64,000 nucleotides of DNA from Burkholderia ubonensis (GTDB lineage: Bacteria > Pseudomonadota > Gammaproteobacteria > Burkholderiales > Burkholderiaceae), in assembly GCF_902833085.1 (NCBI RefSeq), contig NZ_CADFEB010000001.1, positions 355,742-419,741 on the forward strand, given 5' to 3'. Shown piece by piece: positions 2,368 to 26,732 of the stretch. Numbering within the stretch: position 1 is the stretch's first letter; each line of letters starts with the position of its first letter. A program made the position numbers and the translations under genes. The notes under the pieces are model-generated. The model ran no database searches. It was not told where the DNA came from and saw only the letters and a program-made list of their open reading frames with translations.

Positions 2368-3324
2368 ATGGCGGATCTGCGCGACGTGAACCTGAACCGG
2401 CTCGCGGTTTTCGTGGCGGTGGTCGAAGCGGGCTCGCTGACGGCGGCGGCCGAGCGGCTCGGGCTCGCGAAGACGGTGGTCAGCACGCACATGCAGCGGC
2501 TCGAATCCGAAGTGGGCGCGAACCTGCTGGTGCGCACCACGCGGCGGCTCGCCGTGACCGACGCGGGGCGCGCGTTCTACGACGCGTGCCGCGACATCAT
2601 GCGCGCGACCGAAAGCGCGCTCGACGCGGTGTCGTCGGAGACGGGGCCGCTGCGCGGCACACTGCGCGTGAGCGCGCCGATCGACTACGGCGCGCAGGTC
2701 GTCGCGCCCGCGATCGTCGCGCTGCGCGACGCGCATCCGGCGCTCGACGTCGAGCTGATCGCGAACGACCGCCTCGTCGACCTCGTCGCCGACAACATCG
2801 ACGTCGCGATCCGCATCGGCCGTCTCACGGATTCGAACTATCGCGCGGTGCAGCTCGGCGAATACGAAAAGTGGCCGGTCGCGAGCCCGGCGTTCGTTGC
2901 GCGCCGGGGATTGCCGCGCGATCCGGCGGCGCTCGCGGCGCTGCCGTTCGTGATGCTGTCGACGCTGCCGCGCCCGCAGACATTCGAGCTCGAGAGCGCG
3001 CGCGGCGGCAAGGCGTCGGTGCGCTGCACCGCGCACGTCGTATCGAACACCGCGACCGCCTGCCGCGCGATCGCGCTCGCTGGCGGTGGTTTCGGGTTGC
3101 TGACCGATTTCTCGATCGCCGACGACGTCGCGGCGGGCCGGCTCGTGCGCCTGCTGCCCGGCTGGCGATCGCCGCCGGCCGGGATTCACGCGATCTTTCC
3201 GTCGACGCGGCTGCCGTCGCCGAAGGTGCGGGCGTTCATCGAGGCAATGCGGGAAAAAATTGGCGCGGCGCCGGTGCGGGCGACACGTGGGCGGGCGACG
3301 AAGTCGAAGCGTGCTTCCGGGTGA
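2368..3324 (+). CDS. LysR-family transcriptional regulator (divergent to GST)
   Basis: A 318-residue LysR protein. An N-terminal winged helix-turn-helix (about residues 7-65) reads 'NRLAVFVAVVEAGSLTAAAERLGLAKTVVSTHMQRLE', followed by a periplasmic-binding-like effector domain ('LRGTLRVSAPIDYGAQVVAP' onward). The ATG at 2368 gives the canonical MADLRDVNLNRL start; the frame is open to 2332 but the upstream part is unlike the family. The basic C-terminal tail (ATRGRATKSKRASG) is unusual but harmless. Divergent arrangement with the GST-PPOX pair implies it controls that pair from the shared 126-base spacer, as LysR proteins usually do. The effector is unknown. Confidence 0.9.
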   Translation: MADLRDVNLNRLAVFVAVVEAGSLTAAAERLGLAKTVVSTHMQRLESEVGANLLVRTTRRLAVTDAGRAFYDACRDIMRATESALDAVSSETGPLRGTLRVSAPIDYGAQVVAPAIVALRDAHPALDVELIANDRLVDLVADNIDVAIRIGRLTDSNYRAVQLGEYEKWPVASPAFVARRGLPRDPAALAALPFVMLSTLPRPQTFELESARGGKASVRCTAHVVSNTATACRAIALAGGGFGLLTDFSIADDVAAGRLVRLLPGWRSPPAGIHAIFPSTRLPSPKVRAFIEAMREKIGAAPVRATRGRATKSKRASG

Positions 3325-3347
3325 ATCGTGCCGCGCGCGGGCGGCAT

Positions 3348-3515
3348 TCAATCGCTACGCAGCAGCCTTCTCAAGAGAATGGACTTCAGATCCTTGCGGG
3401 TGTCGCACACGACATGGATATAAGCGATATCGCCGCGAACCTCGTAGACGATGCGGTTCATTCCGGCGATGAGAGTTGTTTCCGCAGAATGCAGAATCAC
3501 GACACGAGGCGTCAT
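3348..3515 (-). pseudogene. RelE/ParE-like toxin, internally deleted
   Basis: A 55-residue frame starting MTPRVVILHSAE and ending RKDLKSILLRRLLRSD. The ATG overlaps the antitoxin stop as ATGA, the usual antitoxin-toxin coupling. The first 12 residues match the N-terminus and the last ~37 (GMNRIVYEVRGDIAYIHVVCDTRKDL) match the C-terminus of RelE/ParE-fold toxins that normally run 90-105 residues. The middle, which forms the helices and central strand, is missing, with the frame preserved. I infer an in-frame internal deletion of roughly 45 codons, probably inactivating. Alternatively it is a genuinely short protein with another role. It follows the Phd/YefM antitoxin gene directly. Confidence 0.7.
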
Positions 3516-3784
3516 CGCTCGCCATCGTCGTCGAGTTCCGTGAAGACGTCCTCGACAGCACGAGAGTGACCTTGCTCGATCTCGCGATTGCCGAGAGCGA
3601 GAAGCCTCAGGAGCGCCAGCGTTTCTTCACGTTCCTCATAGGACTTGACGTCCATGACGGCGAGTTTCTCGTCGCCGTTCTGGGTGATGAGCATCGGCTC
3701 CCGGCTTTCGGAAATCTCTTTGACGATCTCCGCGGCGTGGCTCTTCAGGTAGCTGATCGGCTTGACTCGGGTGGGAAATTTCAT
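3512..3784 (-). CDS. Phd/YefM-family antitoxin
   Basis: A 90-residue protein starting MKFPTRVKPISYLKSHAAEIV. The N-terminal Phd/YefM DNA-binding fold is clear: 'SYLKSHAAEIVKEISESREPMLITQNGDEKLAVMDVKSYEE' (about 11-51) is the standard sequence in which the protein dimerises and binds its own promoter. The acidic C-terminal tail (EDVFTELDDDGER) would wrap the toxin. Type II antitoxins of this family repress their operon together with the toxin. Its partner at 3348-3515 is internally deleted, so this antitoxin may now act only as a regulator or protect against related toxins elsewhere. The gene sits at the left side of a lower-GC segment. Confidence 0.88.
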   Translation of the reverse strand: MKFPTRVKPISYLKSHAAEIVKEISESREPMLITQNGDEKLAVMDVKSYEEREETLALLRLLALGNREIEQGHSRAVEDVFTELDDDGER

Positions 3785-4244
3785 TGCGACACCTTGTCCT
3801 GTTTGGCGACAACCGGACCGACTATAGTTCGAATTTGGTCGCTACATACGACGACCGGCCCGAGGATTGACCGAATCTGCGTACATCAAGGCGGCCCACC
3901 ACCGCGACCCCGCGCCCCAATGAAGTCATTCGAGCTTTGACGATTCGAAACAATGCGACTTTGGGCGTAATCCAGCGCCAAACTCGGAAAACCCACTGCG
4001 CCCTCCCAGCACCTCAACGACAAGATGCGTGACCAATTCGTCGACAGGCGGAGCGACGACGCTGGAGTAAGACTAGCGGTTCATAGAAGCGCTAAACAAT
4101 GTATGCTTATACAGTACCTAACAACTGCGGACTAGCGCCGCTGACGCTCGTAAACGGCGAGGCCAGGGCGCGCACAGGCGTTAGATTTCGGCAGAACAGC
4201 ATCAGGACGACAGTCAGAACGGACCACATTACGGGAGTAGACGC
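3785..4244. other. Intergenic region, no gene seen
   Basis: About 460 bases between the antitoxin start and the ATPase-nuclease gene. Base composition is visibly lower in G+C than the flanking genes. The only ORFs (for example 4099-4299) are short and without recognisable protein character. It must hold the promoters of the divergent antitoxin and ATPase-nuclease genes, but no clear -35/-10 pair or repeat was identified. It may also hold one junction of the inferred insert. Confidence 0.5.
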
Positions 4245-6251
4245 ATGGCAACGGAAGAATATCCGGTCGAAGTCCAATCGGACTTCCTCGAAAAGATGAC
4301 CCGTGCGAAGCCGATTTCAGCGCTGTCGGAACTCGTCTGGAACGCCTTCGACGCCGACGCGAAAAACGTTGATATCTCGTTCGAGTACAACGATCTGGAT
4401 ACGCTCGACACGATCATCGTCAAGGACGATGGTGAGGGTATCCCGCGCGCTGAGGCAGCCGGCTTCTTTCGTTCACTGGGCGGCTCATGGAAGAAGTCCA
4501 GAACACAGACCTCTGGTGGACGTTTCCTGCATGGGCAGGAGGGCCGTGGACGATTCAAGGCCTTCGCCCTCGGAAGCGACGCCGAATGGGCAGTCGTGTA
4601 CAAGCGCGACGGCAAATTCTGGTCGTACACGATTCGCATGTCCGCCCTCGACATCCGGCACGTCCGAATCAGCGACGAGACCAGAGCGAAGGATGCGACG
4701 GATACGGGCGTGACGCTGACCATCCGCAACGCGCTGAAAGACTTCCGCACGTTCACAACCGAAGACGGTCGCGAGGAGTTGACCGAGGTCTTTGCGCTAT
4801 ACCTCGCCGACTACGAGGACACGAAGATCGTGCTCGATGGGAGCGCCATCGATCCGGGCTCAGCCATCACTGACAAAAAATCCTTTCCTCTGTCTGACAT
4901 CGAGATCGACGGGAAAGCGTATTGGGCGCGACTACAGGTAGTCGAATGGAAATCGGCCGGAAATCGAGCCCTTTATCTGTGCAACCAGCAGCGTTTTCCT
5001 CTCGTGCAGGTGGATCGCCGCTTCCACATTGGTCAGTTCCAGTTCTCCGGCTACCTCCACTCGCCGTACTTCGATCAGGCGCAAATGGAAGGCACGGTCG
5101 ATCTCGCCGAAATGCAGCCGGCCGTTCTGAGCACAATTGCGGAAGCGCAGCAGACGATCAAGGACCATTTTCGGTCACGGGCAGCAAAAGAAGCCCGCAC
5201 GGTCGTGGAGGAATGGAAGGACGAGGAAGTCTACCCGTTCTCTGGCGACCCCGCGACGGCGGTCGAGAAGATCGAACGTCAAGTATTCGACATTGTGGCG
5301 GTGAACATCGCACGACATCTGCCGGACTTCCGCACAACCCAGAGCAAAACCAAGGCTTTCCAACTGCGGATGCTGCGGCAGGCGATCGAGCGCAGCCCCG
5401 AAGACTTGCAGGTCATCCTGGACGAGGTGCTACGACTGCCAAAGCGGCAGCAAGAGGAGCTAGCCCAACTGCTTCGCAATACCTCACTATCGTCGATCAT
5501 CGGTGCGGCCAAGGTGGTGTCCGACCGGCTCAAGTTCCTGAGCGGCTTGGAGGCGGTACTGTTCGACCCCGAACCGAAGAAGCGATTGAAGGAGCGGACT
5601 CAGTTGCACCGGATCATTGCGGACAACTGCTGGCTCTTTGGAGAGGAGTTCGCCTTGTCAGTGGATGACCAATCGCTGACCACGGCTTTGGTGGAGCATA
5701 AAAAGTTGCTCGGCAGCGAAGTGGTGATCGACGAGCCTGTGAAGCACATCTCGCAAATGCGGGGAATCATCGACCTGATGCTGTCGAGAGCGACGAAGCA
5801 GCATCGCGCGAATCAATTGACGCATTTGGTCGTCGAATTGAAAGCACCGAAGGTCAAGATCGGTTCGGACGAGGTTACGCAGATACAGGGTTACGCGTTC
5901 TCGGTAATGAGCGATCCCCGCTTCGATAAGGTTGGGGTAACGTGGAACTTTTGGGTGATCAGCGACACGCTCGACCGCTACACCGAGCATCTAGTGCAGG
6001 ATGAGACCGGCGTGATCCTATCCAAACCGAACGTCAACATCTACGCAAAGACGTGGGCGCAAGTCCTTGATGAGAATCGCGCGCGGTTGAAGTTCTTCCA
6101 GGATCACCTGAACGTACAGGTGGACCGGGAAGCCTCCCTACAATATTTGCAAGAACGGTACGCGGCGTACCTCGAAGGCGTGTTCGAGGAGAGCAACGAC
6201 GATACCGCACTGGTCGCGGAGGAGGACACGGCTGGCACTACATCCGAATGA
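4245..6251 (+). CDS. GHKL ATPase - PD-(D/E)XK nuclease fusion, candidate defence protein
   Basis: A 668-residue protein. Residues ~1-330 are a GHKL (HSP90/MutL/histidine-kinase type) ATPase: N-box E29-x3-N33-x2-D36 in 'ALSELVWNAFDADA', DxGxG box D61-D-G63-E-G65, and a glycine-rich lid around 97-110 (GQEGRGRFKAFALG). A helical linker follows. The C-terminal part (about 445-600) begins 'LHRIIADNCWLFG', resembling the entry motif of Shedu SduA/DUF4263 nucleases, and carries a PD-(D/E)XK core: D510 (GIID), E531-L-K533 (VVELK) and Q548 (QIQGY). The inferred role is ATP-gated cleavage of foreign nucleic acid. GGGAG lies 9 bases before the ATG. It stands alone, next to a toxin-antitoxin relic, in lower-GC DNA, consistent with horizontal transfer. 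Function is inference; domain motifs are seen directly. Confidence 0.8.
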   Translation: MATEEYPVEVQSDFLEKMTRAKPISALSELVWNAFDADAKNVDISFEYNDLDTLDTIIVKDDGEGIPRAEAAGFFRSLGGSWKKSRTQTSGGRFLHGQEGRGRFKAFALGSDAEWAVVYKRDGKFWSYTIRMSALDIRHVRISDETRAKDATDTGVTLTIRNALKDFRTFTTEDGREELTEVFALYLADYEDTKIVLDGSAIDPGSAITDKKSFPLSDIEIDGKAYWARLQVVEWKSAGNRALYLCNQQRFPLVQVDRRFHIGQFQFSGYLHSPYFDQAQMEGTVDLAEMQPAVLSTIAEAQQTIKDHFRSRAAKEARTVVEEWKDEEVYPFSGDPATAVEKIERQVFDIVAVNIARHLPDFRTTQSKTKAFQLRMLRQAIERSPEDLQVILDEVLRLPKRQQEELAQLLRNTSLSSIIGAAKVVSDRLKFLSGLEAVLFDPEPKKRLKERTQLHRIIADNCWLFGEEFALSVDDQSLTTALVEHKKLLGSEVVIDEPVKHISQMRGIIDLMLSRATKQHRANQLTHLVVELKAPKVKIGSDEVTQIQGYAFSVMSDPRFDKVGVTWNFWVISDTLDRYTEHLVQDETGVILSKPNVNIYAKTWAQVLDENRARLKFFQDHLNVQVDREASLQYLQERYAAYLEGVFEESNDDTALVAEEDTAGTTSE

Positions 6252-6263
6252 AGTAGGGCCGCC

Positions 6264-6911
6264 CTACCCCAACGTCCCAAGCAACACCTTCCTGCAGCTC
6301 GCGATCATCTGCGCTTCCGGATCGCGGTACTGGGTCAGCAGCCACGCCGTGCCGACGTTCGTCATCGCGCCGACCAGCGCGAGCCCGATCAGCCGCTGCT
6401 CGGTGCGCTCCGCCCCCGCAACCGCCTCGCCTCGCCCGCCGATCGCCATGATCAGCTTGCCGAACTCGACGAGCACGCGCTGATACGTCGCGTCGGTGTC
6501 CAGGCTCACGCCCATCACCTCGAGCAGCAGCACGCGCGCCGCGCACGGATCGCGCAGGAACCCGAAGAACGCCGCGAGCCCCGCGTCGACGCGTGCGTGC
6601 AGATCGCCGCCGCGCGCGGCGACCGCCTGCGCGACCGCGTCGCGCAACTGTTCCGCGTGATGCAGGTAGGTACAGCGCAGCAAATCCTCGGTGCTGTCGA
6701 ACGCCGCATAGAAATAGCGGTCGTTCAGCTTCGCTTCCTGACAGATCGACCGCACGGTCGCCTTCCTGAAACCGACCGTGCCGAACACGCGCGTCGCCGC
6801 GCGGATCAATGCGTCGCGCCGCTCCGCCGCGCGCACCTCGGGCGCCACGCCGCCGTATGCGCGGCCCCGTTTCTGCGTTTTGAGTGCTTTCTCCATTCCG
6901 CTATTTGACAT
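6264..6911 (-). CDS. TetR/AcrR-family transcriptional repressor
   Basis: About 215 residues starting MSNSGMEKALKTQ. The TetR helix-turn-helix occupies residues ~30-75: 'RRDALIRAATRVFGTVGFRKATVRSICQEAKLNDRYFYAAFDSTEDLL', with the usual YFYxxFxSxEDLL signature. The C-terminal ligand domain is unassigned. It is divergent from the SDR-monooxygenase operon 90 bases away. A promoter with an overlapping inverted repeat in the spacer (see 6905-6951) makes it the likely repressor of that operon. The start could also be the ATG one codon upstream (6914) or MEKAL at about 6896. Confidence 0.9.
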   Translation of the reverse strand: MSNSGMEKALKTQKRGRAYGGVAPEVRAAERRDALIRAATRVFGTVGFRKATVRSICQEAKLNDRYFYAAFDSTEDLLRCTYLHHAEQLRDAVAQAVAARGGDLHARVDAGLAAFFGFLRDPCAARVLLLEVMGVSLDTDATYQRVLVEFGKLIMAIGGRGEAVAGAERTEQRLIGLALVGAMTNVGTAWLLTQYRDPEAQMIASCRKVLLGTLG

Positions 6912-10994: not shown

Positions 10995-11411
10995 CTCTCT
11001 GTCCTGTTCGTCCGGCTTCCGTTTCGGGAGTGCTTCGGTTGCGCCGTCGATTGCCGGTGTGTGCGGGTTGGCCCGCCGGGCGGCGCGATCCTGCTCTCAT
11101 GTTCGCGAGGCGCGGGCATTTCGTCAAAGCCGCAGGCCTCGGTCGGGCAAACCGCCGTGCCGCAGTAAGTGTGCCAACGCGCGCGCGTCGCCGGACGCCG
11201 ACGCTACGTAACGTTCCCAGGCGCGTTACGGCGCCTTGCGGGAACATCGCGCAGCCCATTGCGCCACCGCTCCGCGAAATCGCCATTACTCGGAACAAAA
11301 AGCCTCGAACGTCGGACATTCCACAAGAAAAATTCACCGTTCGGCGCGCATGCCACGATGGCGCGGAAATTGCAGTTCTGGTCGGGACAAACACCAATTG
11401 TTGAGGCCAAC
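10995..11411. promoter_or_regulatory. Intergenic region with an inverted repeat
   Basis: About 417 bases between the divergent CMD-like and lipoprotein genes; no gene supported. It contains a perfect inverted repeat CGTAACG-N10-CGTTACG at 11207-11230, a plausible operator. The stretch 11230-11410 is less GC-rich than its surroundings and probably holds the lipoprotein promoter. Confidence 0.35.
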
Positions 11412-13376
11412 ATGCAGAAATACTTCACAAGAACGACGCTCTCGCTCGCCATCTCGTCGCTGCTCGCGCTGTCTGGATGTGGATCGATCGACGGACCGAC
11501 CACGCCTACCTCGCTGAAGCCGAGCACGTCGGGGACGTCGGGAACGTCAGGCACGTCAGGGGCGTCCGGAACGTCAGGCACGTCAGGGGCGTCCGGAACC
11601 TCCGGCAGTTCGGGAAGCTCAGGGACGTCGGGGGGGAGTTCAGGGTCTTCGGGTACGTCCTCAGGCACGTCTTCGGGAACGTCTTCGGGTACGTCTTCGG
11701 GTACGTCCTCGGGTACGTCCTCGGGTACGTCTTCGGGTACGTCTTCGGGTACGTCTTCGGGTACGTCCTCGGGTACGTCCTCGGGTACGTCCTCGGGTAC
11801 GTCCTCGGGTACGTCCTCGGGTACGTCCTCGGGTACGTCCTCGGGTACGTCCTCGGGCACGTCTTCCGGTACATCCTCAGGCACGTCTTCCGGTACATCC
11901 TCAGGCACGTCCTCAGGTACGTCCTCAGGTACGTCCTCAGGTACGTCCTCAGGTACGTCCTCCGGCACATCTTCCGGCACGTCCTCCGGTACTTCTTCGG
12001 GCACCTCCGGCTCCACCCCGCTCGGCAGCCTCTTCCGGCAGACCGGCAACCTCGTCACATCGCTCGGCACGACCGTCGCGAACGGCGGTACCCAAGTGGG
12101 CAGCGTGTCGAACAACCCGGCTGCCGCCAGTGTCGGCAACGTGGTCACGAGCCTCGGCAACGGTGTCCAGTCGCTCGGCAACGGCGTCGCGGCCGGCCTC
12201 GGCTCGATCGGCGTGTCGCCGAATCCGCTCGGCCCGACGCTGACGTCGGCGACCGGCCTGCTGAGCGGCGCCAGCGCAGCCGTCAACAATGTCGGCAACG
12301 CGGTGACGAGCCTCGGCGCCGGTCCGCTGTCGCCGCTCGCACCGGTCACGACGACCGTCGGCGGCCTCGTCAACACGGTCGGCAGCGTCATCAGCACCGC
12401 CGCGTCCGGCCTCAACACCACGCTGAACACCACGCCGATCCAGCAGCTCGAGACGCAGGTCGGCAGCTTCATCAACCCGATCACGAACACGCTGACCGGC
12501 GGCGTCCAGACGCCCGGCACCACGCAGACCGTCGGCACCACGACCGGTCTCGGCACGCCGGTCGGCAACCTGCTGACCACGGTCGGCAATGGCCTCGGCA
12601 CGGCCGGCACGCAGATCGGCGGCGCGACGACCAACCCGGCCGGCACCGATCTCGGCAACGTCGTGACGCAACTCGGCAATACGGTCACGAGCGTCGGCGG
12701 CCTGCTCGGCGGCAGTACGGGCAGCTCCAGCAGCGGTTCGGGCGGCACGAGCGGGACCAGCAGCGGCAGTCCCCTCGCGCCGATCACGGGCCTGCTCGGG
12801 TCGCTGGGCGGCGGCAGTGGTTCGAGCGGGACCGGCGGCAGCGGCCCGCTCGCCCCCGTCACGAACCTGCTCGGCTCGCTCGGCTCCATCGGCGGGACGA
12901 GCGGCACGAGCAGCGGCACGAGCGGAACAAGCGCAGGCGGCCCCCTCGCACCGGTGACCAACCTGCTCGGTTCGATCGGCAGCGCCGGCGGTACGAGCGG
13001 CACCGGCGCCGGCGGCCTGCTGGCGCCCGTCACGACCCTCGTCAATTCGCTGACGCCGCTCGGCGCGAGCCTCACCGGCACGGTCACCACGCCTGGCGGC
13101 GGGGTGACAGGCAACCTGACCGGCGCGCTGACGAACGGCCCGATCGGCACGCTCGCCGGTTCGCTGACGTCGCCGGCCGGCGCCACCGGCGCCGGCGTCG
13201 CGGCGAGTCCGGGCGGCGTGATCACGACGATGACGACCCCGGGCGGCAGCGGCACCAGCACCGCCGCGGGCGGCCTGAGCGGCGGTTCGAGCGGCGGCAC
13301 GGCCGGTGCGACCAGCCTGCTCGCGCCGGTGACGAACCTGGTCGGCGGCCTGCTCGGCGGCGCCTTACCGAAGTAA
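11412..13376 (+). CDS. Repeat-rich lipoprotein (Ser-Gly-Thr tandem repeats)
   Basis: A 654-residue protein. A lipoprotein signal peptide (MQKYFTRTTLSLAISSLLALSGC) ends in lipobox LSGC with the lipidated Cys at residue 23; GAGG precedes the ATG at 11412. Residues ~38-200 are low-complexity: GTSG/GASG units and then about 29 copies of the tetrapeptide SGTS coded by a 12-base unit. The rest is Gly/Thr/Val/Leu-rich with recurring modules such as 'TSLGNGVQSLGNGV' and 'GPLAPVTNLLGSLGS', suggesting repeated amphipathic strands. Similar Burkholderia proteins are sometimes labelled 'collagen-like', but the 4-residue period is not Gly-X-Y. Probably an exposed outer-membrane lipoprotein whose length varies by slippage (inference). 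Confidence 0.8.
   Translation: MQKYFTRTTLSLAISSLLALSGCGSIDGPTTPTSLKPSTSGTSGTSGTSGASGTSGTSGASGTSGSSGSSGTSGGSSGSSGTSSGTSSGTSSGTSSGTSSGTSSGTSSGTSSGTSSGTSSGTSSGTSSGTSSGTSSGTSSGTSSGTSSGTSSGTSSGTSSGTSSGTSSGTSSGTSSGTSSGTSSGTSSGTSSGTSSGTSGSTPLGSLFRQTGNLVTSLGTTVANGGTQVGSVSNNPAAASVGNVVTSLGNGVQSLGNGVAAGLGSIGVSPNPLGPTLTSATGLLSGASAAVNNVGNAVTSLGAGPLSPLAPVTTTVGGLVNTVGSVISTAASGLNTTLNTTPIQQLETQVGSFINPITNTLTGGVQTPGTTQTVGTTTGLGTPVGNLLTTVGNGLGTAGTQIGGATTNPAGTDLGNVVTQLGNTVTSVGGLLGGSTGSSSSGSGGTSGTSSGSPLAPITGLLGSLGGGSGSSGTGGSGPLAPVTNLLGSLGSIGGTSGTSSGTSGTSAGGPLAPVTNLLGSIGSAGGTSGTGAGGLLAPVTTLVNSLTPLGASLTGTVTTPGGGVTGNLTGALTNGPIGTLAGSLTSPAGATGAGVAASPGGVITTMTTPGGSGTSTAAGGLSGGSSGGTAGATSLLAPVTNLVGGLLGGALPK
11640..12008 (+). 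repeat. 12-base tandem repeat array coding SGTS units
   Basis: About 29 consecutive 12-base units of the form TCGGGTACGTCC with T/C, A/G variation (TCAGGCACGTCT, TCCGGTACATCC). Middle copies (about 11690-11850) are nearly identical and outer ones diverged, typical of expansion by slipped-strand pairing. The unit length keeps the frame whatever the copy number. Both strands and several frames stay open through it, producing spurious ORFs (for example VPED repeats on the minus strand). Confidence 0.95.
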
Positions 13377-17826: not shown

Positions 17827-18453
17827 CTATGAAGCCTCGCCCCACGGGTCATAAATATAGTTGCTATCGATTGGAATAAAATCGATACCCTTCAACGCCG
17901 CCCGCTCTGCCTCCTCCTTGAAATTCTCATTACAAACAAGCTCCATTATCTCGACACTCCGAAACAAGGTTGACGCACAATCATCACGGGGAACAAATCT
18001 CTTGATCCAGCTGTACATTGGAGCACCAGGAAAAAGATTGTTCTCGGCAATTTCCCCTGTTTCCATATCCCTATCTTCCGAAAATTCAGAACTACTTCGG
18101 TCAAGAAACTCAACGTGTTCCGCCGGAAGAAATATCGAATAGCGCTTATCTCCAACGTCTTTACCATCGTACGTAATCCGCAATGGGATTGCACGATAGC
18201 GAACCTTCATCGCGTCACACACTTGCAAAAACTTCTCTGAAACAAAATTCGTTTGACTTCCGTAAAAATCAAAATCAACCGAATCCTTAGAGTCCGAAAG
18301 CTGATATATGTAATCGTGCTCCACTGCTACGCTGAATGGATCGCCAACATACATTGGCCACTCCCACTCGTCGCGATTTACTGCTCCCGACAAGAAGTGC
18401 GGGCACCCAAACTCACCCGGACGATATTGAACGACATAAAATCGAGCATCCAT
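17827..18453 (-). CDS. Imm11-like (DUF1629) immunity protein
   Basis: A 208-residue AT-rich gene starting [20 protein letters not shown]. Its ATG shares one base with the rhs stop codon (TGATG), so it is translated by coupling, as expected for a toxin tip's immunity gene. The pattern 'TNFVSEKFLQVCDAMKVRYRAIPLRI', '...HVEFLDRSSSEFS' and the ending 'ALKGIDFIPIDS' fits the Imm11/DUF1629 immunity family as I recall it. It should bind and block the AHH nuclease tip of the adjoining Rhs protein in the cytoplasm. Base composition differs sharply from the rhs core, typical of exchangeable tip/immunity cassettes. Confidence 0.75.
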   Translation of the reverse strand: MDARFYVVQYRPGEFGCPHFLSGAVNRDEWEWPMYVGDPFSVAVEHDYIYQLSDSKDSVDFDFYGSQTNFVSEKFLQVCDAMKVRYRAIPLRITYDGKDVGDKRYSIFLPAEHVEFLDRSSSEFSEDRDMETGEIAENNLFPGAPMYSWIKRFVPRDDCASTLFRSVEIMELVCNENFKEEAERAALKGIDFIPIDSNYIYDPWGEAS

Positions 18454-21400
18454 CAAAGTAGCCTTCCAGTTATTACATCAATTACATACTTCCCCGTCTC
18501 AAGCCCCTCTCGCGCCATATTTTGGATGCGCCCGACACCGAGAGCGAGTTGCGTGTCACTGAGCCGTCCAGCGAGGAACTGCTGATTGAGCTTTTTCAGC
18601 TCGGCCTCGACAGCAGCAGTGTATTGACTGTGATTCGACCAGTGCCCAGGCAGCCCCATGTCCTTCGCGAGTCCGGAACTGCCCGGCAAGAACGTACCAT
18701 TCGAAGCACCGTCGCCATCAAAGCCCATACTTCGGAGGCGCTTGAACATAGCCGCGAAATCGGGATGCTTCATCAACTCTTCGGGGATGAGATGATGGTT
18801 CGCCATGCCGTCGCCGGTGCGGGCTCCCATATTTTTGCCAAGAACTGTCGAGCACCAACCCAACGGATCGATCCATCCAGTCGCGTTTGGTGCAAAAGCA
18901 TACAGATTCTCTCCACCCAGCACCCCAATCGGATCGTGATTAACGAACCTCCCCACATCCGGGTCATAAAACCGGAACGTGTTGTAATGCAGCCCGGTAC
19001 TGTCATCAGCATACTGCCCCGCATACCGCAACGGCTGCTCTGTACGCGGCGCCGCCAGTTGCCGATCCCCGGCGTCAACCTTCCCCCACGCCGAATACCG
19101 CCCGGCCCACGCGACCTCTCCCGCCTCGTCCGTCACCTCCAGCGGCGCGCCGACCAGATCCGTATGAAAATGGTAGACCCGTGCCGCGTGTTTCGCCTTC
19201 TCGATCGCAACCGCGGCAACCGCATCCGCGATTACAGCGTCGACACGCGCTGCCGGCGCATACGGCGCGTCCGGGCTGTAGACATAGCTGCTGACGCCGG
19301 TTTCGCGAATCTCCTGCGCGAGCCTCAACCCTTCCCACACGAACCGCTTGCGCTCCGCGCGCAGCTCGACGCCACGATGATCGAAGTAAGTTTCGGTCTT
19401 CGCCGTGCGCCGGCCAAGCGGGTCGTATTCGAACCGCGCTTCGACCACCCCGCTCGCATCCTCCGTCCGCACGGCAATCAACCGATCCTGCCCATCGTAG
19501 CCAAACCGCTGCGTTCGATTCGGCCCCCGCTGTTTCGTCGCAAGATTTCCGAACGCGTCATACGCAAACCGCAAGTCCTGCCACATCCGCAGCCGGTTGC
19601 CTTCCACATATCCGCGGCTGCGACGCTGCCCGTCATCCAGCAAATTGCCGGCCGCATCCCACGCGAATTCCTCGAGATGCCGGTCCGCCATACGATACTG
19701 CCGCATCAACTGCCCCGCCGGGTCGTAGCTGTATTGCGTGCTGCCCCGCAGGCTGTCGCTCATCTCCGTCAGTTCGCCGGCCGCGTCGTAGCGGTAATTG
19801 CGCCACAACTGCCCACGCATCCGGGCGGTCGTCTCCGGCGACAACCCAGCCGCCTGCCACAACTTGCGTCCCAGCAAGTCATAACCCGATCGTTCTATCA
19901 AACGCCCTTGCGTCCGCAAGATCTCGCGATGCAGGTCGTCCCGTTCGAAATCGCTGACCACCTGGTCGCCGCAGCGAATCTGGTGCACGTGGCCCGAGCC
20001 GTACCGCAGCATCTGCAGCGTCTGCTCATGCGGCAACGACAGCGTCGACACGTTGTCCAGCTCGTCCAGCGCGTACCCGACCGTGCCGTTCACGCCATGC
20101 TCGGCAATCAGCCGCCCGCCCGCGTCGTATTCGAACCTGACCGCATCCGGCTCGATACCGAGCGCGACACCCGCATCGGTCGGCATCCGCTCGACTGCAA
20201 GCAGCCGGTCTCCCGCATCACGCTCGTAGCGGGTCACGTCGGTCGGCGTGTGCTGCGCCGTGAGATTCCCCATCAGGTCGCGCTCGAAGCGAAGCACCCG
20301 AACAGCCTCCGCATCACGACGCGCCGTCTCATCAGCCGCACCGACGATCGTCAGCTCCCGAAGCCCGCCGGCATCGTCATAGTCGAAGCGCCGCTTCACG
20401 CCATCCGGCCGCGTTTCGGACAGCAAACGCCCGCCCGCGTCATAGGCGAACGCATAGCGCGCATGATCGTTCAGCAGCTCGAACAGCCGCCCTTCGGCAT
20501 CGTAGCGATACACGAGCCGGCGCCCCGCCGGATCGATCGCTTCGCGCAACTGGCCACGCGCATTGCGGATCGATTGCCGGATGCGTCCGCCCAATCCGAC
20601 ATGTCGCACGACTAGCCCAGCCGCATCGTATTCGAAGGACTCCTCGCTGCCGTCCGGATAGGCAATGCGCACCGGTTCGCCGGTCGGCCGCATCGCGTAC
20701 GAGACGCGCTGCCCCAACGCGTTTTCCGTTGCAACCGGCAATCCGAACGCGTCGAACTCGCTGCGCGTGGTCTTCCCCGAGCAATCCGTGTACGCGACGA
20801 GCTGACCGAGCCGGTTCCACGCCAGCGCCTTGCGCCCGCCGCGCGCATCGACATGCGCGGCGGGTTGCGACGTCAGCCCGTCGGGATACTCGTACCGGTT
20901 GGTCCGGCCAAGCGGATCGCAGCTGAGCACCAAGCGCCCCTGACGATCGTATTCCGCCTGCCAGACGCCGCCGTCCGGTGCGGTGATTTCCACCGGACGC
21001 AGGCTGTTGCCGTCGTACCGTGTGCGCGTCGTGCGCCCGAGCGGATCGGTCTCGGCGACGATGCGCCCCGCATCGTCGTATTCCAGCGCGACCTTGCGCT
21101 CGCCAGGCAGCATGAACGCAATCGGCATGCCGGCATCGTTGTACTCGATCCGGTACTGCGCGCCGTCGAGATCCGTGCATTCGACGACCTGGAACTGCGC
21201 GTCGTAACGCCAGCGCGCCGAACGTCCGTCGAGATGGCGAACGCGGCTCTCCCGCGCGTCGAGGTCGTATTCGAACGTCCAGTGCTCGCCCTCGCTGGTC
21301 TGCGTCGCGACGACGCGCGGCTGCCCGCCGATCGCCGCCCACTTGTAGCTCGACACGAATCCCAGCGCGTTCGTGTGGCTCGTCATCAAGCCGTCGGCGT

Positions 21401-22721
21401 ATGTAAAGCGGCGCACGACCGCGTTGTTCGCGTCCGTCACCGACGCCATCTGACCGTTGTCGTCGTATCCATAGGCGACGGCGAGACGGCGCTCGTCACC
21501 GTGGACAAGCGTGACCGTTGCGAGCCGGCCGTGGACCGCCTCGTAATCGAGCACCGCCTGCATGCCGCCGCAGGTGAGAATCTCGCGCACGCGCCCCTGA
21601 CTGTCGCGCTCGAACTGCGTCCACTGCCCGGCCTGGTCCTCGATGCGGCGCACCCACGCGATCCGGTCCGTGTCGGGATCGAGCCGTCCGAAGTCGTAAT
21701 ACGTTTCGCCGACGTCGTGCAGCACGTAACGCCCGTCGGGCGTGCAGGTCAGATAGCGCTGCTCGCTCTCGCTGAACGACGACTGCCCCTTGCGAACCAG
21801 CGGAAACCCGCTTTCGCGCCCCTGCGCATCCGTGTACCAGAGCCGCCCGTCGCGCGCCTGCAGCCGCAGGTCCCACGGCAGCACCCAGCCGCGGCCGAGC
21901 GTGCCGACGTGGTCGAGGCCGCTCGAATAGAAGCGCTTGATCGCGACCGGCAGGGGAGCCGGAATGACGTAATCGGTTTCCGATTCGGCGAGCAGGATCT
22001 TGCGCCCGGTCGTGACGTCGACAGGATTGCCGAACATCCCGCCGATCGCGCGATTGATCGCGGGCCCAGCCACATAGCGCCCCACGGCCTCTCCGAGCAC
22101 GAAGCCGCCGATGAACTTCGCCGCACACGGCAGGACCGCGCGCGACAGTCCGCCGGCAGCCTTCACGAGGCCGGCGAGCCCGCCGACCAGCCCGGCCAGC
22201 GCGAATGCCCAGTCGACCGTGGTACGGAGCCACGGCGGCACCTCGTCGTCCACCGGCAGGTAGGTTTCCGTGCCGCCGTGAATGAACGTATCGTGCGAGC
22301 CGTCGCCGATCGCCGCGCCGCACGTGATCTTGTCGTCCTTGCGCGCGGCGGGCCGCCCGTTGATGAAGACGTTGGTCGAACCCTGCGCGACGAGCGGCAC
22401 CGGATTGTGCTTGTCGCAAGCCGTACCGCTCAGCGTGGCATACGCGGCGGGCTTGCCGTTGATGAAGACGTTGGCGGAGCCGGTGACGATCGCACCGGAC
22501 GGAGAACTGAACATCTTCCCTATCGCCTCTCCTAGCGACAGGATCGCGCTGGCTCCGACGCCGGCAACCAGGCCCGCCAGCAACGCCACGCCGAAGCCGC
22601 ACGTGAAGGTCGCGAACGCGACCGCGGCGATCAGCGCGACGCCGATGACGGCGCCGATCAGGAAACCCGCGAGCGCGCTGGTGTGCTCGATCGGATCGGT
22701 GACGCGTGCGGCCTCGAACAT
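18453..22721 (-). CDS. PAAR-Rhs polymorphic toxin with C-terminal AHH nuclease (T6SS effector)
   Basis: A 1422-residue protein. Two hydrophobic helices near the N-terminus (about 14-62) form the region that EagR chaperones shield. A PAAR-like spike follows (about 75-165, with repeated [18 protein letters not shown]). Then come a linker and many YD/RHS repeats (about 240-1240), and the Rhs core end '[24 protein letters not shown]...WIDPLGW' (about 1243-1289). The variable tip begins after DPLGW: 133 residues with 'NHHLIPEE' (H1309, H1310), 'SNGTFLPG' and 'GHWSNHSQY', the AHH/HNH-type nuclease signature. The core would encapsulate the tip and be delivered by the upstream VgrG; the tip would cut DNA or RNA of the target cell. 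EagR lies upstream and immunity downstream. Confidence 0.92.
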
Positions 22722-23926: not shown

Positions 23927-26732
23927 ACCAGCCTCCGTAATACTCTGCATAAGGTTGCTTCGTGTTCGACGTGATTTCGCCCCTGCCGAATTGCGCGCCG
24001 ATCGCCTGCCGGGCGGCGTCGGCATTGCCATCCTTCAGGAACTGGTCGTATGCCTTGTTGTACGCCGCATGATTGGCGCTGTTGCCGGCAATGCCGATAT
24101 CCGCGCCGCCGTTCGCGAGAATTTCGCGCCGGGCCTTGATGTTGTTCATCGTGGCTGCACCTTCGTCCGCCAGTGTGCCATTGACGTAGGCGGTTTTCGA
24201 CGAATAGTCAGCCTGGAACCCGTAGGTCGCGTGCCCGACCTCATGCGCCAGGGTTTGCGTGGTTCCCGCCGTATTGCCCTTGAAGCTGCCGTCCAGCGTG
24301 ATGGTCTGGTTCTCGCGCCTCGCAAACGAACCGCCTCCCGGCTCGCCGTACTTGATTTTCCAGCCGTCGTCCTTGAGCTTCTTCAGGTCGCCCTGCAGAC
24401 CCGGTGATTTCGCGGCAAGCTGGTCGACGTCGTGACCGAGTCCCGTTTGCACCGGGGGCGCGGCCGATCCCGCAGCCGCGCCGACGCCGGCCGCACCTGC
24501 GCCGGCCGCTCCGCCTTCCGCCGCAGCAGGACCTGCGCCACCGGCCCCACTGGCTGCCGGCGCCGATGGCCCCGACGACGCGCCCTGGTTCAGGTGAATC
24601 ACCGGACCGTCGATGTAGATGCCGCTCGCCTCGATGCGAATCGTGGACGCCCCGTGCGTCAGCGTGACGCCGCCCGGCGTCAGGATCACGACGCTGTCGC
24701 CGACGCGATGCTCGATGCCGTCGCTCGCCAGGTGGCTCTGCATGCCGGGGCCGGCTTTGCTCGCGACCGCGTTGGTGTTGATCACGTTGGCGGTCGACGA
24801 TCGCGTGAGCGCGACCATCTCGGTCATGTTGCCCTGCGCCACATGCTTCGTCTCATCCCCCTTCAGCACCGACACCTTCCGCGCGCCGCCTTCGACCGTA
24901 TGCGACTCGTTGTCCTTGACGACGGTGTTCATGTCCTTCTGCGCATGCATGAAGAACTCCTGCGAGCCGTCGACGTCGGAGAACCGCAGCTCGTTCGAGC
25001 CCTGCCCCTTGTGCGTCTGGCTCTTGAGCCCCATCGTCTGGCCGCCGGTGCCGTGATACGGGTTGCCCGATTCGCCGTTGAACACGCGGCCGACGACGAC
25101 CGGGTTGTCCGGATCGCCCTCGTTGAACGCGACGATCACCTCCTGCCCGATGCGGGGAATCGCGGAGCCGCCCCAGCCCTTGCCGGCCCACGGCTGCGAC
25201 ACGCGCACCCACATCGAGTCGGAGCCGTCGCGCTTGCCGCGGCGATCCCACAGGAAATGCAGCTTCACGCGGCTGCCGTCGGTATGGATTTCCTCGCCCT
25301 TCGGCCCGACCACGATCGCCGACTGCGTGCCGTGCATGGACGGCTTGCGGGTGCGCCGTTCCGGCCGGAACGGAATGTCGAACGGCAAACACGTGAACGT
25401 GTTGTGATACGGCAGCTCGGCGCCCTGGCGCGTGTAGTCGTTGACCGCCTGATGGCGCACGCGCAGGATCACGAACTCCTTGCCGCTGTAGGAGGACGAC
25501 GCGTGGTTGACGAGCGTGAAGCGGCCGTTCGTCGTCATCCCGCGCGCATAGCCGCCGCCGTTGAAACGCCGCGCCTGCGCCTCTTCGGCTTCCATCGCAT
25601 AGCGCGCGTAGCGCTCGCCGTCCTCGCCGTGGTCGTACAGCGAGTGGAACTGATAACGTTCGGTCGCCTGAATGTTGTCGTGCTTGAGGTTGACGGTCGG
25701 CACCTCGACGTGCATCAGCGACGACGACGGCTGGTTGTAGTTGAAGTCGCGGAACGTGATCTTGCCGACCCGGAAGCTGAACGCCTCGTCCCAGCGATCG
25801 ATGCCGTTCAGTTCGCTGGCCGCGCTGTCGGCGTAGTACGAGATCGTCTCGGCTTGCGGGATCGGACGGAACAGCGAATTGCTGTCGCCGATCACGAGGA
25901 CATGCTTGTCCTTCTCGAAGCGGAACGTCCAGACGAGCCCTTCCTGCTCCATCAGCCGCGCACAGAAGTGGTAGTACGACTCGTCGTACATCACGATGTA
26001 TTCGAGCGGCGACTGCTTGCCGCGGATGTCGAATTCGAAATCCGCGAAGCCCATTTCCTGGAAGATCCCGCGCAGGAGATCCTGCGGCGTCTGGTTCTGG
26101 AAGATCCGGCAGTCCGTCGAACGCGTGAGGAACCAGAGCCACGGCACGACCGACATCTCGTAGCGCGTGACCGTGCCGGAGTTGCCGACCTTGCCGAACG
26201 ACGCAACATAGCCGTCGAAGTAGCGGCGCTCGTCGGTCTCGGTGGACGCGGCCACGACCTTCGTCAGGCTGAAATTCTTGCTCTGCGGATCCAGCACGAC
26301 CTTTACGCGCTGGCCGACGATCTGCTCGGGCCCGATGTTGTTCCGGTGGGACAGCAGGTCGAGGTGGATCTCCGGCAGCTGGTTGACGTGCTCGTCGATC
26401 ACGGCGGCGTTGACGAGCAGCACGTCGTCGCCCAGCGGCGTTTCGAGCGTGACGTAGCGGTTTTCCTGGGTCAGTTGCGGGCGCGCGCCCGCCAGGCCGT
26501 TGAGCGCGTCGGCGATCGATTCGGGGGTCTTGCCCAGCATCGCCATCCCGGTCTGCGCGAGCCGGACGGCGCTCGCCGCGCCGCCGAGCAATCCCGCGCC
26601 CGGCATGCCGGTCAGCGCGCCGAGCTGCCCCGCCATGCCGGCAATCGAACCCAGACTCGCCAGGCCACCCGCCGAGGCCGGGACGGCGCCGCCGGCAATC
26701 CCGCCCGCGCCCCTGTTTTCCGCGAAACTCAT
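23898..26732 (-). CDS. vgrG: Specialised VgrG spike protein with C-terminal zincin metallopeptidase
   Basis: A 944-residue protein. A Gly/Ala-rich N-terminal extension (about 1-85) precedes the gp27-like hub (about 90-480, with 'YESYYHFCARLMEQEGLVWTF'-type phage-hub features). The gp5/OB and beta-helix spike follow ('VRVSQPWAGKGWGGSAIPRIGQEVIVAFNEGDPDNPVVVGRVFNG' about 545-590, then the TLTHG/IRI spike repeats to ~740). After an Ala/Gly linker comes a domain with HEVGH at 830-834 and a possible third ligand E857 (ADEGA), a gluzincin-like arrangement. Evolved VgrGs carry effector domains here, so this would be a periplasmic or cytoplasmic protease effector of T6SS. It heads the vgrG-lipoprotein-eagR-rhs-immunity string. 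Confidence 0.9.
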   Translation of the reverse strand: MSFAENRGAGGIAGGAVPASAGGLASLGSIAGMAGQLGALTGMPGAGLLGGAASAVRLAQTGMAMLGKTPESIADALNGLAGARPQLTQENRYVTLETPLGDDVLLVNAAVIDEHVNQLPEIHLDLLSHRNNIGPEQIVGQRVKVVLDPQSKNFSLTKVVAASTETDERRYFDGYVASFGKVGNSGTVTRYEMSVVPWLWFLTRSTDCRIFQNQTPQDLLRGIFQEMGFADFEFDIRGKQSPLEYIVMYDESYYHFCARLMEQEGLVWTFRFEKDKHVLVIGDSNSLFRPIPQAETISYYADSAASELNGIDRWDEAFSFRVGKITFRDFNYNQPSSSLMHVEVPTVNLKHDNIQATERYQFHSLYDHGEDGERYARYAMEAEEAQARRFNGGGYARGMTTNGRFTLVNHASSSYSGKEFVILRVRHQAVNDYTRQGAELPYHNTFTCLPFDIPFRPERRTRKPSMHGTQSAIVVGPKGEEIHTDGSRVKLHFLWDRRGKRDGSDSMWVRVSQPWAGKGWGGSAIPRIGQEVIVAFNEGDPDNPVVVGRVFNGESGNPYHGTGGQTMGLKSQTHKGQGSNELRFSDVDGSQEFFMHAQKDMNTVVKDNESHTVEGGARKVSVLKGDETKHVAQGNMTEMVALTRSSTANVINTNAVASKAGPGMQSHLASDGIEHRVGDSVVILTPGGVTLTHGASTIRIEASGIYIDGPVIHLNQGASSGPSAPAASGAGGAGPAAAEGGAAGAGAAGVGAAAGSAAPPVQTGLGHDVDQLAAKSPGLQGDLKKLKDDGWKIKYGEPGGGSFARRENQTITLDGSFKGNTAGTTQTLAHEVGHATYGFQADYSSKTAYVNGTLADEGAATMNNIKARREILANGGADIGIAGNSANHAAYNKAYDQFLKDGNADAARQAIGAQFGRGEITSNTKQPYAEYYGGWYDNNFPPKK

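Follow-up and report, generated by a model that had tools for sequence, protein, structure and literature searches.

The 668-aa protein gene and its domains

The analysis concerned a 64,000-nucleotide stretch of the Burkholderia ubonensis genome (contig NZ_CADFEB010000001.1, positions 355,742 to 419,741; hereafter the window), in which a gene encoding a GHKL ATPase fused to a PD-(D/E)XK nuclease was located at 4245-6251 of the forward (+) strand. The gene was a single intact open reading frame of 668 amino acids (aa) with an ATG start, and one copy was present in the host genome. A GGGAG sequence resembling a ribosome-binding site was noticed by eye at 4233..4237 (+), 7 bases 5' of the ATG. 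No sigma-70-like promoter was found in 3780-6400, the terminators there were not above chance, and an Rfam scan of 3300-6400 gave no match at the gathering score.

The initial annotation described one protein joining a complete GHKL ATPase to a C-terminal PD-(D/E)XK core, and the motifs and folds agreed with this description. The ATPase domain was recognised by Pfam HATPase_c_3 on residues 25-138 (4317..4658, +) with an E-value of 3.5e-15, over the cut-off, and its motifs were complete: E29 (codon 4329-4331), N33, D36, D61-G63-G65 and G97/G100/G102. Downstream of it stood an S5-fold domain, the S5-like transducer, at about residues 207-290 (4863..5114, +; boundary placed from predicted secondary structure). 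It was followed by a long helical connector seen in the AlphaFold2 model at about residues 292-440 (5118..5564, +), of low confidence at 385-418. The nuclease domain occupied about residues 451-638 (5595..6158, +), as judged from alignment, fold and profile comparison, with the codons of D510 at 5772-5774, E531 at 5835-5837, K533 at 5841-5843 and Q546 at 5880-5882 (+). An enzymatic N-terminal domain and a nuclease were found in one chain.

The entire protein was modelled by AlphaFold2 with a predicted local distance difference test (pLDDT) score of 80.8 and a predicted template-modelling (pTM) score of 0.52, and the nuclease domain only with 83.9 and 0.82, respectively. Head and transducer (residues 9-316) gave a two-domain structural match to MORC3; TRAP1, MORC and SMCHD1 structures matched the GHKL head, and the GHKL part also resembled MutL. 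The PHROGs match of the protein was phrog_6203, a family of unknown function.

Insertion site within the genus

The GC content was 55-59% over 3751-6250, whereas the flanking intervals were mostly at 66-75%. Together with alignment to sites lacking the gene, this delimited a low-GC insertion of about 2.4 kb at 3841..6266 that carried the GHKL-nuclease gene alone; its ends could be placed only approximately, at 3840 on the left and at 6259-6270 on the right. The insertion stood between LysR and TetR genes. The TetR flank was found at more than 500 bits in 59 of the 61 genus genomes, the host's own included. Thirty loci at the TetR site were compared, one being the window itself; none of the 29 others matched the 668-aa protein, and genome G024, examined separately, carried the gene at the same site. 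In G030 and G052 a gap of 17-22 bases separated the LysR side from the TetR side, and a relative of the Phd antitoxin followed by TetR stood at the site in G018, G019, G020 and G025. At 16 further loci the LysR side could be aligned to position 3249, after which other DNA preceded TetR, and at 7 loci no left flank was aligned within the examined distance of at most 1.5 kb. The DNA occupying the site in other genomes appeared, by eye, metabolic or unidentified.

Full-length copies were present in 3 of the 61 genus genomes (G000-G060), namely G000, G024 and G049, and a headless copy was present in G050. The gene and the TetR site were on different contigs in G049, and the genus copies thus occupy two sites. 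It was concluded that the GHKL-nuclease gene was recently gained and is mobile.

A Phd/YefM antitoxin gene (3512..3784, -), identified by Pfam and site comparison, is an older occupant of the site and lies outside the cassette. The whole antitoxin gene was adjoined by a RelE/ParE-like toxin frame (3378-3515, -), which retained two pieces of the 109-aa toxin of G020 (L194): a piece of 32 residues was recognised with certainty (E 1e-13), and another of 15 residues matched weakly (E 0.07). Judged from these alignments, the antitoxin and the frame are a toxin-antitoxin pair minus its toxin at a variable site. The insertion, the Phd/YefM gene and the toxin remnants confirmed the early description of a gene standing alone in lower-GC DNA beside a toxin-antitoxin relic.

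Conservation and selection

The alignment comprised 36 homologues, found on genomic and viral contigs as well as in the window, with 18-47% identity to the 668-aa protein. Residues invariant in all of them included E29, N33, D36, D61, G63, G65, G97, G100, G102 and R103 on the GHKL side, and E450, W463, D510, E531, K533, Q546 and Y550 on the nuclease side. Hence, the nuclease core first proposed was retained in D510 and E531-x-K533 but not in Q548, which was kept in 1 of 36 sequences; the conserved glutamine was Q546. Likewise, the 'LH…NCWLFG' motif was preserved only in part. W463 (36/36), L454 (34/36) and F465 (33/36) were largely kept, but position 455 was occupied by His in 24 homologues and by Gln in the other 12, and G466 was found in just 20.

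The ratio of non-synonymous to synonymous substitution rates (dN/dS) was 0.062 against the G024 copy (99% identical) and 0.057 against the G049 copy (80% identical), the latter with a saturated dS of 2.2. Such low ratios indicate purifying selection that maintains the 668-aa protein.

Two distant GHKL-nuclease relatives (L016 and L113) had Gly or Ser aligned with the catalytic Asp, possibly reflecting an inactive nuclease or a misalignment. Two headless relatives, L009 (G050) and L010 (G066), comprised the helical and nuclease part only, from about residue 322 or 285. They retained the ExK site, and no GHKL part was found in the region examined, which may represent decay or a nuclease-only form.

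Comparison of the nuclease with Shedu

The PD-(D/E)XK family HSDR_N_2 of Pfam was matched on residues 476-553 with E 1.2e-4 and 22.5 bits, slightly under the cut-off of 25; the same place scored 25.7 in the genome search, and a Colwellia relative 25.5. Restriction-fold structures topped the fold list of the nuclease domain, EndoMS being the best match.

The nuclease was further compared, profile to profile, with SduA, HSDR_N_2 and Mrr sets (16 of 22, 12 of 19 and 14 of 20 loci, respectively). The percentages obtained are rough, because entire frames differing greatly in length went into the alignments of these sets; read in this way, the probability was 85-88% over 141-164 columns for the 16 SduA proteins, 47% over 59 columns for the 12 HSDR_N_2 proteins and 1.5% for the 14 Mrr proteins. 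The alignment with SduA included W.FG, D, ExK, Q and the C-terminal tail. Null controls with the same query gave 1.1% for reversed SduA and at most 0.1% for five shuffles. When subfamily A alone (24 sequences), to which the 668-aa protein belongs, was used as the query, the values were 79% for SduA, 20% for the HSDR_N_2 set and 6% for Mrr. The nuclease thus appeared closer to SduA than to the two other PD-(D/E)XK families compared.

In a midpoint-rooted tree, subfamilies A and B fell together with group C outside, and the 668-aa protein was 15-19% identical to seven outgroup GHKL-nucleases. L011, provisionally assigned to group C, fell in subfamily B and was excluded from the group C profile. 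This profile of 7 GHKL-nucleases formed a bridge, with 99.2% to the nuclease of the 668-aa protein and 97.4% to SduA. Pfam SduA_C matches were recorded in three group C members, namely L121 with 27.0 bits (equal to the cut-off), L012 with 21.6 and L141 with 22, the last one scoring 29.2 with its in-frame neighbours.

Two results weigh against the Shedu link: SduA_C gave no match to the 668-aa protein at E <= 1, and the PADLOC SduA models matched only one of the 36 aligned proteins, at 0.0011. PADLOC 2.0.0 did not call the protein Shedu. Foldseek with the nuclease domain only gave nothing at E <= 0.001, and Shedu was not separable from EndoMS, BspD6I or FokI in the VIA-align fold comparison. 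The suggested kinship with Shedu/SduA was supported by the profile-profile comparison, whereas neither Pfam nor PADLOC matched the protein directly. Based on the profile comparison and the group C bridge, a divergent enzyme of the Shedu type is the most likely identity of the nuclease domain.

Distribution and gene neighbourhoods

Relatives had a patchy distribution and were found on plasmids, in phages, on viral contigs and in the chromosomes of several phyla. Matches were present in 48 plasmid records, of which 21 were from Streptomyces; in 36 records the match extended over 80% or more of the protein. Two Pasteurella phages carried the gene among tail genes, and the 43 viral-contig loci consisted of 19 full-length members of subfamily A, 20 of subfamily B and 4 partial ones. 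A profile search (A1) that scored up to two top candidates in each genome gave matches in 330 of 398 phylum genomes. These were mostly short GHKL-head matches, probably to MutL and similar proteins, and at least nine places, the host's own genome included, covered most of the protein length. Three plasmid copies, L203 (H4), L048 (H13) and L196 (H15), were shortened or interrupted with transposase genes adjacent, a sign of quick turnover.

Sixteen annotated neighbourhoods were examined over up to 8 kb per side (12 kb for phages), and restriction-modification (R-M), DRT or Abi genes were observed in three. In Phaeobacter (L042) an ISP R-M gene overlapped the GHKL-nuclease gene by 4 bases, in Psychrobacter (L045) DRT2 and Dcm/LlaMI were near the gene, and in Bradyrhizobium a helicase and an Abi gene were. 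The remaining 13 contained no gene named R-M, DRT or Abi in the stretch examined, the plasmid annotation being incomplete. Three loci were hand-picked, with no control rate, from 120 neighbour frames. In G318 (L180:4942-15139) the gene was inside a type I R-M operon, in the order HsdS, the gene, a Schlafen-like AlbA_2 gene and HsdR; in G161 (L181:6232-11782) a GHKL-nuclease relative had a canonical SduA on one side and an HNH gene on the other; and in Colwellia a DUF2971 gene matching the PADLOC candidate PDC-S31 came after the GHKL-nuclease gene. Scanning covered 39 of the 120 frames, 10 singly and 29 as a pool. Matches to 105 PADLOC families were obtained from the pool; the 25 families listed each occurred in one protein and were not assignable to loci. 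The usual setting of the gene family is solitary. The single-gene setting proposed initially is in agreement with the solitary insertion and the mostly solitary neighbourhoods.

Comparison with known systems

In MutL, in gyrase and in MORC, which acts in eukaryotic silencing, clamps on DNA are powered by GHKL ATPases. MORC, SMCHD1, Hsp90/TRAP1 and MutL share the head and transducer fold of the 668-aa protein; they have another C-terminal half, which is not known to include a Shedu-like nuclease. In canonical SduA (EcSduA 8ps4, BcSduA 8ti8/8ti9) the opposite was seen: the nuclease core aligned by profile in W.FG, D, ExK, Q and tail, whereas the N-terminal sensor is a different domain from the GHKL head. 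According to a review (PMC12904381), EcSduA is a tetramer that binds or senses the ends of DNA and introduces nicks at a set distance.

The combination of GHKL and nuclease has already been published. In Iyer et al. 2008 (PMC2292703), paraMORC3 is composed of GHKL, S5 and a C-terminal restriction-fold nuclease and is often standalone, such copies occurring mainly in proteobacteria and bacteroidetes, and ATP-driven DNA looping was proposed. The 668-aa protein shares this composition, the standalone proteobacterial occurrence and the mobility. Its E450, D510, E531 and K533 make up the E-D-ExK of the C-terminal restriction fold and are invariant, E450 being, on our own reading, the 'E' of the published motif. 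No difference from paraMORC3 was found when the published description, as far as available, rather than sequence was compared.

The closest described relative is VcSduA (Nat Microbiol 2025, PMC12137116), a GHKL and Shedu nuclease protein that protects against phages by itself, loses protection upon E27A or K557A substitution, is modelled as an entwined clamp dimer and is classed as Shedu type I-D. Like the 668-aa protein, it is described there as the product of a single gene on a genomic island, with an N-terminal GHKL, a middle part and a C-terminal PD-(D/E)xK domain. It differs in being described as DUF4263-positive, while the 668-aa protein had no SduA_C match, and in the distance from the GHKL Glu to the ExK Lys, which is 530 residues in VcSduA (E27-K557, taken from the paper, VcSduA itself being unaligned), 504 in the 668-aa protein and 502-519 in its subfamily.

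The 668-aa protein is regarded as a divergent relative and showed every paraMORC3 feature examined. The GHKL-headed Shedu first expected to be an informative variant is already in print, with paraMORC3 described in 2008 and anti-phage activity demonstrated for a relative in 2025. The concept has been experimentally examined once, for VcSduA; what is added here is a divergent, widespread branch not called Shedu by PADLOC-DB 2.0.0.

Proposed function

We consider it likely that the gene provides defence by itself, its product being a DNA nuclease of Shedu-like type gated by ATP. By analogy, it probably defends against phages or plasmids. The defence role, rated as plausible at first, is made likely by the mobility and some of the neighbours. 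It was proposed that two GHKL heads would bind ATP and close around DNA as a MutL/MORC-like clamp, and that the S5 and helical parts would relay the clamp movement to two C-terminal PD-(D/E)XK domains. These domains would cut DNA that bears some mark of foreign origin, the most likely candidates being free ends or a different structure present in phage or plasmid DNA as it replicates. ATP turnover would reset the clamp and keep the enzyme off intact host DNA. The dimer clamp, the DNA cutting and the anti-phage role are what we infer from relatives. A clamp and a DNA cutter in one bacterial chain would be a simple system for studying the recognition of foreign DNA by ATP clamps.

More tentatively, and with rather less than even confidence, the 668-aa protein and its close relatives could be viewed as a separate branch of GHKL-headed Shedu-like enzymes, common in plasmids and phages and uncalled by PADLOC 2.0.0. 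A MORC-like, ATP-driven topological clamp would then discriminate foreign DNA from that of the host, for instance through failure to lock on the intact chromosome, and the enzyme would cut only at an end or a phage-specific structure, the phage-borne copies serving as cargo against rivals.

The protein might instead assist an R-M system whose genes lie at another place, its GHKL module looping DNA between recognition and cleavage sites. Relatives in or beside R-M genes (the type I operon of L180, the ISP enzyme of L042 and Dcm/LlaMI of L045) suggest such a role, and looping was proposed for MORC/paraMORC in PMC2292703. However, 13 of the 16 annotated neighbourhoods had no gene named R-M, DRT or Abi in the stretch examined, the protein has a complete nuclease of its own, and VcSduA protects alone (PMC12137116); this explanation is unlikely.

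Less probable still is that the protein, paired with a methyltransferase, acts as a type II restriction enzyme with sequence specificity, like BbrUII/HgiDII. Those enzymes, of about 660 aa, have a GHKL head too, and both NCBIfam NF050001 (46.4 bits) and the PADLOC REase_II models matched residues 26-202. The likeness was confined to this GHKL head, far under the family cut-off of 550 bits, and the insertion held no second gene; the immediate neighbours were the Phd antitoxin, TetR and LysR and no methyltransferase, the rest of the genome not having been searched for methyltransferases. A MutL-like repair or housekeeping protein, suggested by the MutL-like GHKL part and by EndoMS as the top fold match of the nuclease, is highly improbable for a gene that lies in a low-GC insertion and is carried on plasmids and phages. 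Within the genus, just 3 of the 61 genomes have a full-length copy and one more has a headless copy, and the sites of the gene differ, two being occupied.

Other features of the window

A 735-aa frame at 11169-13376 (+) contained long tandem repeats of SSGT and low-complexity sequence rich in glycine and serine. At 17827-22721 (-) a large RHS-repeat-like protein of 1422 aa with a distinct C-terminus was noticed by eye; a low-GC gene of 209 aa directly followed it, and the pair looked like a polymorphic effector and its partner. A VgrG match was located at 24589-25000.
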